This document shows positions 1 through 4,859 of a stretch of 64,000 nt of DNA, piece by piece (the stretch's first letter is position 1; each line of letters starts with the position of its first letter). The translations under genes and the position numbers were made by a program. This DNA is from Geothrix oryzae. Lineage in GTDB: Bacteria; Acidobacteriota; Holophagae; Holophagales; Holophagaceae. The stretch is from positions 186,001 through 250,000 of the forward strand of contig NZ_AP027079.1 in the NCBI RefSeq assembly GCF_030295385.1, in the 5' to 3' direction. Below the pieces are notes generated by a model. It was not told where the DNA came from and searched no databases. It saw only the letters and a program-made list of their open reading frames with translations.

Positions 1-380
1 TAGGGGGAGGAGATGCCGCCCCAGGTGTCGCCATCCGCCCAACCCGTGATGTTGCCGCTGTAGAGGGTGGTGCCGGGGAAAGCCGGGTCCACGGGGCGCA
101 CATCAGCCTGGAAGCGGCTCTCGATGCGGAAGATCACATTCCAGCCGTCCGTGATCTTGGAGGTGCTGCTGATGATGACGCGGGAGGTGTTGTCATCCAG
201 GCGCAGTTCCTTGCCCATGCCAGGGCGCGCCGTGTTGGTGACCTCGCTCTGCTTCACTCCGACGGCGAGCAGGCCCGAGAGCGTGATGTTGGTTCCGGCA
301 CCCACCTGGAGACCCTGGCCCCAGCTGGGCAAGGCCGCGAAGGCCGAAGCGGCTGCAACGACAGCGAAACGAATGTTCAT
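1..380 (-). CDS. Outer-membrane porin, N-terminal part (runs off the window)
   Basis: Only the first 126 codons lie inside the window; the gene continues beyond base 1. The start ATG at 380 follows the Shine-Dalgarno-like AAAGGACA. The protein opens with a typical signal peptide (MNIRFAVVAAASAFAALPSWGQG), after which comes sequence like the first strands of a Gram-negative general porin: LQVGAGTNITLSGLLAVGV, then a ...WNVIFRIESRF strand and a glycine-rich turn region. It would form a diffusion channel in the outer membrane. It lies 134 bases downstream of the SDR gene on the same strand but has its own strong RBS, so it may be a separate unit. Family assignment is by overall pattern because the barrel is incomplete. 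Confidence 0.7.
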   Translation of the reverse strand, partial: MNIRFAVVAAASAFAALPSWGQGLQVGAGTNITLSGLLAVGVKQSEVTNTARPGMGKELRLDDNTSRVIISSTSKITDGWNVIFRIESRFQADVRPVDPAFPGTTLYSGNITGWADGDTWGGISSP

Positions 381-514: not shown

Positions 515-1309
515 TTACTTGGCGATCCCCTTCGGGTAGCAGAGGCCGCCGGTGATCTCGATGGTGGTGGCATTCAAGGCCTGGTTCTCGACGCAGTAGC
601 CGATGAGGGAGGCGATCTCCTCGGGGGCCACCAGGCGGCCGAGGTGCACATCCTCGAGGATCGCCTTCAGGGCATCCTGGTTCATGCCCGTGAGCATGGG
701 CGTGGCGGTGTAGCCGGGGGCGATGGCCACGCAGCGGATGTTGCGGATCCCGCGCATGAGGAACTCGCCCACGATGATCTTGGGCATCAGGGCATCCGCG
801 ACCTTGGCCGAGGAGTAGTTGAGCTGGCCGACCTGACCCGCCTTGTTCACGGAGGAGATCGGCACCAGCAGGCCCTCCCAGCCGCCGTTCACCATGGCCT
901 CGGCGGCGTCCCGCATGGTGAGGAAGGTGCCCGTGAGGTTGGTGTCGATGACGGCCTGCCACTTGGCGAGGTCCAGCTTCTTGGAGACCTGGCCCGTCTC
1001 CTTGTCCAGGCTGAGCATCGTCCCGTCCCGGATGATGCCGGCGCAGGAGACGGCGATGTTGAGCTTCCCGAAGGCCTCGATCGTGCCCTTGATGTACCGG
1101 GCGGTGTCGGCCTCGCTGGTCACGTTGGCCTGGATGCCGATGGCCTCGCCGCCCATCTCTTTGATGTCCTTGACCACGCGGTCGATGTTCTTCTGCGCCA
1201 TGTCGACCACGGCGACCTGGGCGCCCTGCTTGGCGAGGTGCTTCACCACCGCCTCGCCGATGCCGTTGCCGCCGCCCGTCACGAGGGCCACGCTGCCTTT
1301 GATGTCCAT
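515..1309 (-). CDS. Short-chain dehydrogenase/reductase (3-oxoacyl reductase type)
   Basis: This is a 264-residue classical SDR that probably reduces a 3-oxoacyl thioester or oxidises a 3-hydroxyacyl one, using NAD(P)H. Visible features are the cofactor loop TGGGNGIG (residues 11-18), SCAG at 88-91 in place of the usual NNAG, Asn124, Ser152/153 and the catalytic YSSAK (Tyr165, Lys169). The length is typical. The ATG at 1309 is chosen because the Rossmann strand begins at once (MDIKGSVALVTGG); upstream in-frame codons encode low-complexity sequence. It is the last gene of the KAS III-thiolase-small protein-SDR run, 37 bases after the 105-residue protein gene. The substrate cannot be told from sequence. 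Confidence 0.88.
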   Translation of the reverse strand: MDIKGSVALVTGGGNGIGEAVVKHLAKQGAQVAVVDMAQKNIDRVVKDIKEMGGEAIGIQANVTSEADTARYIKGTIEAFGKLNIAVSCAGIIRDGTMLSLDKETGQVSKKLDLAKWQAVIDTNLTGTFLTMRDAAEAMVNGGWEGLLVPISSVNKAGQVGQLNYSSAKVADALMPKIIVGEFLMRGIRNIRCVAIAPGYTATPMLTGMNQDALKAILEDVHLGRLVAPEEIASLIGYCVENQALNATTIEITGGLCYPKGIAK

Positions 1310-1346: not shown

Positions 1347-1664
1347 TCAGAGCTGTTTGGGGCAGGACACGCTGTCCTTGTTCCAGTAGATGAAGTTCGG
1401 GTGCGTGACATCGGGGCCGACGATCTTCAGGTCCCCGATGGTGCTGGGGTGTGCCACATCGGGGCCCACCGACTTGATGCCGACGGGGAAGATGGTCTTG
1501 ACCAGGGTCAGGGCCCGGGCGGCCGCTTCGGCTTCGGCCAGGCCTGCGAAGAGGCCGGCTCCCACGATGGCGCTGGAACCATTGGGCAGGGCGTAGCTGA
1601 TATCCCAGCGATCGCCCCGGGGCTCGACCGTGAAGGTCATGTCGTTGTAGGTGAGGGTGGGCAT
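1347..1664 (-). CDS. Small protein of unknown function with a repeated VGPDV-HP motif
   Basis: This 105-residue protein has no signal peptide or membrane segment and I do not recognise it. Its N-terminal half looks like a small mixed alpha/beta domain (MPTLTYNDMTFTVEPRGDRW...). The C-terminal part carries the same motif twice, KSVGPDVAHPSTI and KIVGPDVTHPNFI, about 14 residues apart, then ends in a Cys-containing tail (SCPKQL). The start ATG is preceded by GGAGG at good spacing. It sits 15 bases after the thiolase stop and 37 before the SDR start, so it is almost certainly co-transcribed. Position suggests an accessory subunit of the thiolase/KAS III pair; that is inference only. Confidence 0.75.
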   Translation of the reverse strand: MPTLTYNDMTFTVEPRGDRWDISYALPNGSSAIVGAGLFAGLAEAEAAARALTLVKTIFPVGIKSVGPDVAHPSTIGDLKIVGPDVTHPNFIYWNKDSVSCPKQL

Positions 1665-1679
1665 GGTCGGCCTCCGTCC

Positions 1680-2921
1680 CTACAGCTTCTTCAGAACGGT
1701 GACGCAGTTGGTGACGGCGGAGCCTCCGACATTGAAGGCCACGCCGATGTCGGCCTTCTTGGCCTTGACGCCGATGGGCTCGCCGATGAGCTGCTTGTAG
1801 ATCAGGGCATGCATGGAGGCCCCGGTGGCGCCCACGGGATGGCCCTTGGATTTCAAGCCGCCGGAGAGGTTGATGGCCACCTGGTCATCCCGCGTGAAGC
1901 GGCCATCCAGGTAGTCGTAGCCGCCGCGGCCATCCATGGAGAGGCCGAGCGCCTCGGTGGAGAGGATCTGGTTGATGGTGAAGCAGTCATGCACCTCGGC
2001 CAGATCGATGTCGGCGGCGGTGATGTTGGCTTCCTTGAAGGCCTTGGCCACGGCATCCTTGCCGGCCATCAGCTCATGCATGTTGGGGCGCACATTCTCC
2101 GGCAGGCGCTCGGCAGAGTGGCCGATGCCGGCGATCTCCACGGCGCGGGCCTTGTTGGTGACATGGGCGGTCTGCGTGATGACCAGGGCGGCGGCGCCGT
2201 CGGTCACCAGGGAGCAGTCGTGCAGGCGGAGGGGCGCGGCGACCATCATGTTCTTGCACTTGCCCTTCGCATCCAGCTCATTGAGCTTCATGACGGCCTC
2301 CACCGTCGCGGGGCCGTTCTGGATATGGGCCAGCGGGTTCTCGGCGCCGTTCTTGTAGCAGAGCGCCCCGGCGGTCCAGAGCATCTTCTCCAGTTCCTCG
2401 TTCGGGATCTTGTAGTGCGCCTGGTAGCCCTTGGCATACTCGGCGAACAACATGGGGAAGGACATGCCCCGGGAGCCTTCGCTGGGCCAGTGCGAGCAGC
2501 AGGCCAGCACATGGGTCATCTGGGGCGTCGGCAGCAGGTTCATCTTCTCCACGCCGATCACCAGCACATGCTTGGCGCGACCGGCCTCGATGGCATAGAC
2601 CGCGTCGTAGAGCGCCACCGAACTCGAGGCGCAGGCGCACTCGCAGCGGGTCATGGGCTTGAAGCGCAGGGCCGGATCGATCTCGGCGGCCAGCGGCGCC
2701 ACATGCTCTTGATTGATGAAGGAACCCGGGGAGCAGGAGCCCACATAGATGGCGTCGATGTCCTTGGGATCCAGCCCCGCGTCGGCAATGGCGCCGCGAC
2801 CGGCCTCGACCAGCAGGTCGTAGTAGGACTTGGTGTCGGTGAGTAGACCCGTGGCCTTGTCCTTCTTCACGAAGGCGCCGAACTGGGTGTTGTAGGCACC
2901 GATGATGCTTGCTTTGCTCAT
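1680..2921 (-). CDS. Thiolase of the SCP-x / acetyl-CoA acetyltransferase type
   Basis: A 413-residue thiolase-fold enzyme that makes or cleaves a C-C bond in acyl-CoA or related thioesters. The nucleophile is probably Cys97 in TRCECACASSS; the second motif is AEVHDCFT and the C-terminal catalytic loop is GGLKSKGHPVGATG. This signature matches SCP-x-like and archaeal-type thiolases better than the classical FadA/AtoB type. ATG 2921 is preferred over the in-frame GTG at 2927 because AAAGGACA lies about 9 bases from the ATG and too close to the GTG. It is 54 bases after the KAS III gene and 15 before the 105-residue gene. The acyl substrate is unknown. Confidence 0.9.
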   Translation of the reverse strand: MSKASIIGAYNTQFGAFVKKDKATGLLTDTKSYYDLLVEAGRGAIADAGLDPKDIDAIYVGSCSPGSFINQEHVAPLAAEIDPALRFKPMTRCECACASSSVALYDAVYAIEAGRAKHVLVIGVEKMNLLPTPQMTHVLACCSHWPSEGSRGMSFPMLFAEYAKGYQAHYKIPNEELEKMLWTAGALCYKNGAENPLAHIQNGPATVEAVMKLNELDAKGKCKNMMVAAPLRLHDCSLVTDGAAALVITQTAHVTNKARAVEIAGIGHSAERLPENVRPNMHELMAGKDAVAKAFKEANITAADIDLAEVHDCFTINQILSTEALGLSMDGRGGYDYLDGRFTRDDQVAINLSGGLKSKGHPVGATGASMHALIYKQLIGEPIGVKAKKADIGVAFNVGGSAVTNCVTVLKKL

Positions 2922-2975
2922 GACCACTGTCCTTTCATGCTTGGAATGGTTGGCCCGACTTCCCCCTCTGGGGAA

Positions 2976-3968
2976 TCAGGGCATGGTGAAAGCCACGGCC
3001 GCCTGGTTGTAGCCCACCCCCGAGCCGACCAGCACGAGCCGGTCGCCGGAGCGGAGCTTTTTCTTGGCGAGGGCGTCGTCCAGGGCCATCGGAAGACAGG
3101 CTGAGCCGGTGTAGCCCCACCCTTCCATGATGGTGTGGGTCTTCTCCATGGGCAGTCCCAGGTCCGCCATGACCAGATCGATGGAGGGCTTGCGCACTTG
3201 GGTGAAGAGGATGAAATCAATGTCTGAGAGCGTGAACCCGCTATCGGCCGCCAGCTTGCGCACCAGGCGGGGCCAGCCTTCGTGGTTGATCTCGGGCGGG
3301 TAGCGCTCGAGCATCTTCACCGTCGTCCGCCCTGCGGCCACCGACGCCACGGAGGCGGGCTCGTAGGTGCCGCCGGAGAAAAGGCCCCAGTACTTGTGGT
3401 AGGCCCCGCCCGCCTGCGCCGCCGCGCCGATGAAGCCGGGACGATCCGAGGCCACCAGCACCACTGCGCCGGCGCCGTCTCCGTAGAAGAAGTTCATGGG
3501 ATCGTCGGGGGAGGCCAGCTTGTGCATCAGGTAGGCGCCCACCACCAGCACGACCTTGATGGCCGGGTTGGTGGCGATCCAGCCGGCTCCCGAGGCCAGG
3601 GCCGTGGGAAAGGAGGCGCAGGCGCAGCCGATATCGAAGGTCCCGGCGTTCACGGCGCCCAGCTTGTGCTGCAGGACGACCGAAGTGGCGGGGGTGATGT
3701 AGTCCGGCGAGTCCGTGCCGAGGATGATCAGGTCCACATCTTCGGGACGCAGGCCCGCCCGTTCCAGGGCCAGCTTCGCGGCCGGCAGGGCCAGATCCGA
3801 GGTCGCCCAGCCCTCGGGGACATGCCACCGGCTGCGAATGCCCGAGGAAGCCTCCATCTGGTCCACGAAGTCGGGGATGTGGGCGAAGCGCTGGCGAAGC
3901 TCGTCGTTGGTAACCTCAATCTCGGGCAGATAGCAGCTTGTGGATGCGATCGTCGCGAATCGGTTCAT
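2976..3968 (-). CDS. 3-oxoacyl-ACP synthase III (FabH/KAS III) family protein, divergent active site
   Basis: A 330-residue thiolase-superfamily protein of KAS III length. The acyl-binding Cys is retained (Cys117 in GCACASF). The two other FabH catalytic residues appear to be replaced: where FabH has PHQAN this protein has FTQVR (Thr256 for His), and where FabH has GNTSAAS it has GYTGSAC (Tyr286 for Asn). It may therefore transfer or carry an acyl group without decarboxylating malonyl-ACP, or act as a non-catalytic partner of the adjacent thiolase. It is the first gene of its operon, downstream of a TetR-type operator and promoter. It is unlikely to be the housekeeping fabH. Confidence 0.85.
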   Translation of the reverse strand: MNRFATIASTSCYLPEIEVTNDELRQRFAHIPDFVDQMEASSGIRSRWHVPEGWATSDLALPAAKLALERAGLRPEDVDLIILGTDSPDYITPATSVVLQHKLGAVNAGTFDIGCACASFPTALASGAGWIATNPAIKVVLVVGAYLMHKLASPDDPMNFFYGDGAGAVVLVASDRPGFIGAAAQAGGAYHKYWGLFSGGTYEPASVASVAAGRTTVKMLERYPPEINHEGWPRLVRKLAADSGFTLSDIDFILFTQVRKPSIDLVMADLGLPMEKTHTIMEGWGYTGSACLPMALDDALAKKKLRSGDRLVLVGSGVGYNQAAVAFTMP

Positions 3969-4028: not shown

Positions 4029-4054
4029 AAAACGAACGGTCGGTCGGTTTTTTT
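4029..4054. promoter_or_regulatory. Candidate TetR operator upstream of the KAS III operon
   Basis: An AT-flanked block reads ACGAACGGTCGGTCGGT followed by a T run, with tandem 4-base steps (AACG, then GTCG twice). ACCGACCG/CGGTCGGT half-sites are common in operators of TetR regulators that control acyl metabolism. It lies about 60-85 bases upstream of the KAS III start, over the expected transcription start, and the next gene upstream is a TetR regulator. The symmetry is imperfect, so the exact operator edges are uncertain. Confidence 0.5.
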
Positions 4055-4057
4055 AGA

Positions 4058-4086
4058 AGATTCCTCTTCGGCCGTACCCGTGTCAA
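4058..4086 (-). promoter_or_regulatory. Candidate sigma-70 promoter of the KAS III operon
   Basis: On the minus strand TTGACA (4086-4081) is a perfect -35 box. About 17-18 bases downstream is a weak -10 (GAATCT/AATCTT). The predicted start of transcription falls on the candidate TetR operator, which would suit repression. Confidence 0.4.
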
Positions 4087-4223: not shown

Positions 4224-4859
4224 TTATTTCTCTGGATCCGGTGGTCTCAGGAAGCCCCGACGGAGAATTTTGGAGATCTCCTTCAGGGCTGCGGGGGTTC
4301 CCTGGCCCAGCTGATCGGGGACCCCGAACAGCACCTCCACGGCGAAGTACTGGAGGAAGACCCGGCTGGCCAACATGAGCGCGGTGGTGGGATCCAGTCC
4401 AGGTGCCAGCTGATCCTTCAGCTGATCGCCGGGGAAGCGCCGGTTCAGGAAGGTCTCGAACCGGCTCGACATGCCCGCGTAGAACTTCCGGATGTGGGTG
4501 CCGTCGAACTCGACCACATCCACATAGATCAGGGCCACATGCCGACGGTAGGTCGTGACGCTCTCCCGGGCGGCCTCGGCAAGGGCCTCGAGATCATCCG
4601 GGAAGGCCCCTGCGGCCAGCGCCTTGTTGAAGGGAAACTCCGGCGTGTCGATGGCTTCCCAGTATTGGTCGAGGAGCGTCCTGAACAGGGTCTCCTTGTC
4701 CGGGAAGTGGTAATAGACATTCCCCGTGGACACTCCCGCCGTCTCGGCAATCTCCCGGATGCTGGTGCCCCGATAGCCTTGCTTCGAGAAGAGCTGGAGG
4801 GCTGCCTCCAGGATCAAGCTGCGGCTTCGTTCGGACTTCTCCCCCTGGGTCAGTTTCAA
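4224..4859 (-). CDS. TetR/AcrR family transcriptional regulator
   Basis: A 211-residue repressor-type protein. Residues 10-57 form the TetR DNA-binding domain (ILEAALQLFSKQGYRGTSIREIAETAGVSTG with YYHFPDKETLF), followed by an alpha-helical ligand-binding domain. It probably senses an acyl thioester or a product of the downstream operon and represses it. The start codon is TTG at 4859, with AAAGGAG about 9 bases upstream; the sequence MKLTQGEKSERSRSLIL fits a normal TetR N-terminus. The gene is 255 bases upstream of the KAS III gene on the same strand. That gap holds the candidate promoter and operator, so it may regulate the operon from its own transcript. Confidence 0.9.
   Translation of the reverse strand: MKLTQGEKSERSRSLILEAALQLFSKQGYRGTSIREIAETAGVSTGNVYYHFPDKETLFRTLLDQYWEAIDTPEFPFNKALAAGAFPDDLEALAEAARESVTTYRRHVALIYVDVVEFDGTHIRKFYAGMSSRFETFLNRRFPGDQLKDQLAPGLDPTTALMLASRVFLQYFAVEVLFGVPDQLGQGTPAALKEISKILRRGFLRPPDPEK

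Follow-up and report, generated by a model that had tools for sequence, protein, structure and literature searches.

The thiolase superfamily considered here is known for its small partner subunits, and in many of its enzymes DUF35 subunits govern assembly, CoA binding and intermediate transfer. The benzoylsuccinyl-CoA thiolase BbsAB, together with BbsCD, combines a thiolase, a small subunit and an SDR in anaerobic degradation, BbsA being a DUF35 protein. A small partner subunit is also known from the thiolase/HMG-CoA synthase/DUF35 complex, whilst the Ato and 3-hydroxybutyrate operons bring together a CoA transferase, a thiolase (and an SDR) and an importer. In the PhlACB system of Pseudomonas (PMC6392133), a thiolase is likewise joined by two partners, one a member of the thiolase superfamily that is considered inactive and the other a small protein, PhlB, which is a zinc-ribbon/OB protein of the DUF35 family.

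We compared these systems with a locus of Geothrix oryzae contained in a window of 64,000 nucleotides (the whole stretch of DNA analysed), the genome of which is a single contig of 3.27 Mb. An open reading frame check revealed a tightly packed minus-strand series encoding a TetR-family regulator, a KAS III-like protein, a thiolase, a small protein of 105 amino acids and an SDR (Table 1), with intergenic gaps of 48 bp (KAS III-like/thiolase), 15 bp (thiolase/small protein) and 40 bp (small protein/SDR). Searches of Pfam and NCBIfam confirmed the ACP_syn_III, Thiolase_N/C_1 (SCP-x-like, PRK07516/PRK06064), SDR and TetR assignments. The consecutive KAS III, SCP-x-type thiolase and small-protein genes described in an earlier sequence-only reading of this DNA were thus upheld, as was the repeated motif of the small protein, which consists of VGPDVAHP at residues 66-73 and VGPDVTHP at residues 82-89, both kept in relatives. 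The same genes are found in relatives named Geothrix or Holophagaceae, with identities of up to 98%. The start of the thiolase gene was listed as GTG; its relatives favour an ATG at position 2921.

Table 1. Features of the thiolase locus and its flanks, numbered by position in the window
Feature	Position	Strand	Remarks
Porin-like gene, start only	1..380	-	minus-strand run continues outside the window
SDR dehydrogenase, FabG/HSD17B8/HSD10-like	515..1306	-	third core gene of the cassette
Small protein, 105 aa	1347..1664	-	N-terminal beta4-alpha domain (1-60) and conserved tail (61-105) with two GPDVxHP motifs
SCP-x-like thiolase, 415 aa	1680..2927	-	Cys99, HDCF (His313, Cys315) and His363 all kept
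KAS III-like protein, 330 aa	2976..3968	-	Cys117 kept; Holophagaceae-only, upstream of thiolase
Probable operator AAAACCGACCGACCGTTCGTTTT	4029..4051	-	motif resemblance among relatives
TTGACA, probable -35 box	4081..4086	-	kept in most KAS-bearing relatives
TetR-family regulator, probable operon regulator	4224..4859	-	Pfam/NCBIfam

Relatives of the small protein were sought in a single scan covering 84,980 species genomes of bacteria and archaea, from which 43 loci encoding proteins of 56-89% identity were retrieved. The carriers are bacteria from soils and sediments, span at least two phyla and include Holophagaceae, other Acidobacteriota, Rhodocyclaceae, Accumulibacter, Gallionellaceae, Rhodospirillaceae, Micavibrio and others; no relatives were found in viral contigs or in plasmids. 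One MAG record labelled Bacillota (L066) is probably mislabelled, because its KAS III coincides in contig coordinates and score with that of the Holophagaceae genome G316 (L066/L185).

The gene order was found to be constant, with a thiolase (79-95% identical) directly upstream of the small-protein gene in all 43 loci (median gap 26 bp) and an SDR (76-98% identical) directly downstream in all 42 testable loci (median gap 60 bp), the contig ending in the 43rd. Homologues of the small protein lying mostly away from thiolases, the outcome named earlier as speaking against an adaptor, were thus not encountered. Co-occurrence of the genes was equally strict. Of 396 Acidobacteriota genomes, 14 encode the small protein, and precisely this set encodes an orthologous thiolase (score of about 880 bits or above). 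A single genome among 250 of the Propionivibrio order encodes the small protein, this being the same one that encodes the thiolase. SDR orthologues (at least 85% identity) occurred among 100 relatives only in 21 genomes, all of them known cassette carriers; one of these carriers, G698, matches locus L035. The core unit is hence thiolase, small protein and SDR, and the SDR, which the sequence-only reading had left outside its span and treated as an add-on, is as constant as the thiolase. No description of such a cassette was found in literature searches.

We regard the unit as a transferable catabolic cassette in which the small protein would act as a helper of the thiolase and which would degrade a short 3-oxo or 3-hydroxy acid, and assign this reading a probability of about 0.5. 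The small protein could instead be a partner of the SDR, or a bridge between SDR and thiolase for channelling, since every locus has its gene between those of the other two, and co-inheritance is no less strict for the SDR than for the thiolase. This we think improbable, given that SDRs of this fold are normally homotetramers without accessory proteins, in contrast to a thiolase superfamily with small partners; the closer spacing of the small-protein gene to the thiolase than to the SDR also points away from it, though as weak evidence.

The small open reading frame was accepted as a true gene because its dN/dS relative to four relatives is 0.10-0.27, denoting purifying selection, and because the length of its product is steady across phyla at approximately 100-106 amino acids. 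Its product gave no sequence match in Pfam, NCBIfam or the PDB, nor any significant match among PDB folds; the best hit (E 0.38) was not meaningful, and a PDB fold relative was rejected on this basis. A place in a defence system was likewise rejected, there being no PADLOC match. Two AlphaFold2 models built from different starting sequences agreed in confidently folding residues 1-60 into a beta4-alpha domain (pLDDT about 90), followed by a tail of residues 61-105 with pLDDT of about 42-77. The tail is nonetheless the more conserved portion, with a mean majority fraction of 0.87 in columns 61-98 versus 0.65 in the N-terminal domain (1-60). Docking elements are typically conserved segments that do not fold alone, and we infer from the models that the conserved, low-confidence tail may be such an element, the alignment being shallow; the low pLDDT of the tail may also simply reflect this shallowness.

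Among the 33 members of the small-protein family, Tyr6, Asn7 and Asp8 are fully invariant and the GPD and PNFIYW residues strongly conserved, a pattern that would also suit a separate pathway enzyme, for example a hydrolase, isomerase or tautomerase operating between SDR and thiolase without a binding partner, as would the constant co-inheritance of the small protein with both of these enzymes. Such an enzyme is unlikely, in that searches linked the protein neither to an enzyme family nor, with any significance, to a known fold, Arg takes the place of the motif histidines in two loci (L070 and L072), and the most conserved region is the one that lacks a confident fold.

The thiolase of the thiolase/HMG-CoA synthase/DUF35 complex is the best PDB match of the cassette thiolase (profile E 7e-60) and has the same active-site layout (Cys, HDCF, GH, NVGG). 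Furthermore, in at least nine of 12 loci from other Acidobacteriota that encode thiolases of 35-39% identity, the small-protein position is occupied by a DUF35 gene; this place, directly downstream of the thiolase, is held by the small protein in all 43 cassette loci. A DUF35 identity for the small protein was nevertheless rejected, in agreement with the original observation that the third member is not DUF35-like: none of the 33 members gave a meaningful Pfam match, and profile-profile comparison (hhalign) with nine DUF35 proteins returned a probability of 0.1%. Zinc-ribbon cysteines are absent from the family alignment and, unlike PhlB, the small protein has neither a zinc ribbon nor an OB fold. 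DUF35 was not detectable in the cassette genomes either, as PF01796 had no match in any of 24 (14 at least 90% complete, two about 84% and eight unrated), whilst the positive control was detected. The cassette shares the thiolase, small subunit and SDR plan of BbsAB/BbsCD, but differs in having no DUF35 protein such as BbsA; the BbsB model scores 89 bits, and no benzylsuccinate genes were seen at the locus.

It is conceivable, though we put it forward tentatively, that a beta4-alpha protein with a repeated GPDVxHP docking tail, unrelated to DUF35, assumed the structural role of DUF35 alongside an SCP-x-type thiolase and spread with the SDR across phyla as a catabolic cassette. A non-homologous protein at the DUF35 gene position would show that the role had been invented twice and would offer a natural comparison.

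With respect to the thiolase itself, the nucleophilic Cys, HDCF and GH(P) elements of SCP-x/SCP2-type thiolases are all present, and Cys99, H313-D-C315-F and G-H363-P are invariant in the cassette thiolases covered by the alignment, such that the active site is complete. These Cys, HDCF and His residues separate thiolases from their aldolase relatives and are the residues of working SCP2 thiolases (PMC12329534). In the tree, thiolases accompanied by the small protein form one group (SH-aLRT 100) beside sister thiolases of 44-66% identity, alongside which neither the small protein nor DUF35 is encoded; AtoDA-like CoA transferase genes are found in front of such sister thiolases, as in two Holophagaceae loci (L118 and L120) where a sister thiolase of 59-66% identity lies directly behind them, again with neither partner alongside. 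A thiolase of this clade may therefore not need an adaptor, and a strict DUF35-replacement account is weakened. DUF35 may have been lost first and the small protein gained later, an order that would lower the replacement claim but not the partner claim. Two extra conserved cysteines (RCECACAS, Cys95 and Cys97) lie near Cys99 in the cassette thiolases, where most relatives have V/L and N/S. An N-terminal thiolase insertion was considered as a marker of the small protein and discarded, since two sister thiolases without the small protein also have it.

The sequence-only reading had suggested checking whether homologues of the small protein always adjoin a thiolase and KAS III pair, which held for the thiolase (see above) and failed for KAS III. 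Among the 39 loci with enough upstream sequence, KAS III adjoins the thiolase in 11, all of them Holophagaceae, and does not in the other 28. KAS III orthologues, which score 650-755 bits, were not found in 20 non-Holophagaceae carrier genomes, proteobacterial carriers included; where these genomes had any match at the cut-off, it mostly scored 142-170 bits and in two cases 227 and 254. Conversely, KAS III of this type (E < 1e-60) is encoded in 58 of the 396 Acidobacteriota genomes, 45 of which lack the cassette and instead have an AMP-dependent ligase, alpha/beta hydrolases, another SDR and often a TonB receptor or TetR nearby. KAS III was accordingly rejected as a core or obligatory partner. 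Within the family Holophagaceae, however, it is present in all 12 cassette carriers versus one of 21 other genomes, and KAS III and the cassette therefore share a pathway there. Proteins of this Cys/Thr/Tyr KAS III-like family (FTQVR, GYTGS; L166-L180) mostly lie in an operon with an AMP-ligase, alpha/beta hydrolases, an SDR and a TonB receptor, which makes up a separate gene cluster.

Of the Cys-His-Asn triad of KAS III enzymes, Cys117 is kept, whilst His is replaced by Thr (FTQV) and Asn by Tyr (GYxGS), and this Thr/Tyr state is nearly constant in relatives of at least 46% identity. An ordinary fatty-acid FabH function was rejected on account of this active site and because further KAS III genes are present in the same genome, at least one of them retaining an intact triad (L015). 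The loss of the catalytic His and Asn is reminiscent of the inactive partner PhlA and, along with co-inheritance in Holophagaceae, would accord with the original proposal of a biosynthetic condensing complex of KAS III, thiolase and small protein (like PhlACB or thiolase/HMG-CoA synthase/DUF35) and an SDR that reduces its product. We hold this to be very improbable. A constant KAS III subunit beside the thiolase and small subunit, as in both of those systems, was not found, KAS III being missing from most cassette loci and from the non-Holophagaceae carriers. Nor is it an HMG-CoA synthase; it is optional, whereas the SDR belongs to the core, and in the genome G416 KAS III lies far from the cassette, beside a porin, an importer and a CoA transferase. 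The context of the cassette, moreover, is catabolic, and its SDR looks NAD-linked.

The SDR is closest to HSD17B8, FabG and HSD10, and the Asp at the end of its beta2 strand (VVD) suggests that it uses NAD. Outside the window, the minus-strand run continues through the porin, a LivK-like binding protein, LivG, LivF, LivH and LivM to further genes encoding a CoA transferase (PF13336), a second KAS III-like protein and an alpha/beta hydrolase. This second KAS III-like protein (PRK06840 equivalog; L085:18868-19998, approximately 176.9-178.0 kb of C1) has the Cys, lacks the normal His and Asn, and adjoins the alpha/beta hydrolase; a PRK06840 protein neighbours the first KAS III in L180, which suggests a possible pair. 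The best PDB match of the operon's binding protein, a strong one, is 3n0x/3nnd of R. palustris, and inference of the substrate from this likeness was dropped, as our literature search found no paper naming the ligand.

In 13 of 44 loci a CoA transferase gene lies close to the cassette. The neighbours of the cassette in Propionivibrio and Accumulibacter are a FadX-like CoA transferase, an unclassified multi-spanning protein resembling transporters and a sigma-54 activator-like protein, and in L067 an acetoacetate decarboxylase and a 3-hydroxybutyrate dehydrogenase are close by. The porin, Liv-type ABC importer, CoA transferase, NAD-type SDR and active-site-complete thiolase point to catabolism over biosynthesis, so that the condensing direction assumed at first is probably wrong. 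All elements of a short-chain 3-oxo/3-hydroxy acid operon are present, namely an importer, a CoA transferase, an NAD-linked dehydrogenase and a thiolase in one regulon, the NAD preference being read from sequence. In these respects the cassette context resembles the Ato and 3-hydroxybutyrate operons, but its thiolase is of the SCP-x rather than the AtoB type, and the small protein and, in Holophagaceae, the KAS III-like proteins are additional.

This context favours a route in which a short 3-hydroxy or 3-oxo acid is taken up, acquires CoA by transfer, is oxidised and undergoes thiolysis. Under the preferred reading of a catabolic cassette, the acid would be imported and then activated by the CoA transferase, the NAD-dependent SDR would oxidise the substrate, either as the free acid or as the CoA ester, and the thiolase would cleave the product to acetyl-CoA and a shorter acyl-CoA. 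The small protein would be a non-catalytic thiolase subunit, with its beta4-alpha domain serving as a scaffold and its tail docking on the thiolase and perhaps, like the DUF35 subunits of related thiolases, shaping the entrance for CoA or the acyl group. In Holophagaceae, the two KAS III-like proteins and the hydrolase may have joined the same regulon for an upstream step. The cassette gives a testable function to a conserved family that has no Pfam or NCBIfam name, and also to the operon in relatives of Geothrix, Propionivibrio and Accumulibacter.

Between the TetR and KAS III genes lies a 23-bp imperfect palindrome, AAAACCGACCGACCGTTCGTTTT, which by motif resemblance is a probable TetR operator. 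The TTGACA further upstream was not called by a strict promoter scan. Eight KAS-bearing relatives have similar motifs at the corresponding position, and in L036, which has no KAS III, such a motif is found directly upstream of the thiolase gene, from which it appears that a single type of regulator governs an operon that has either gained KAS III or lost it.
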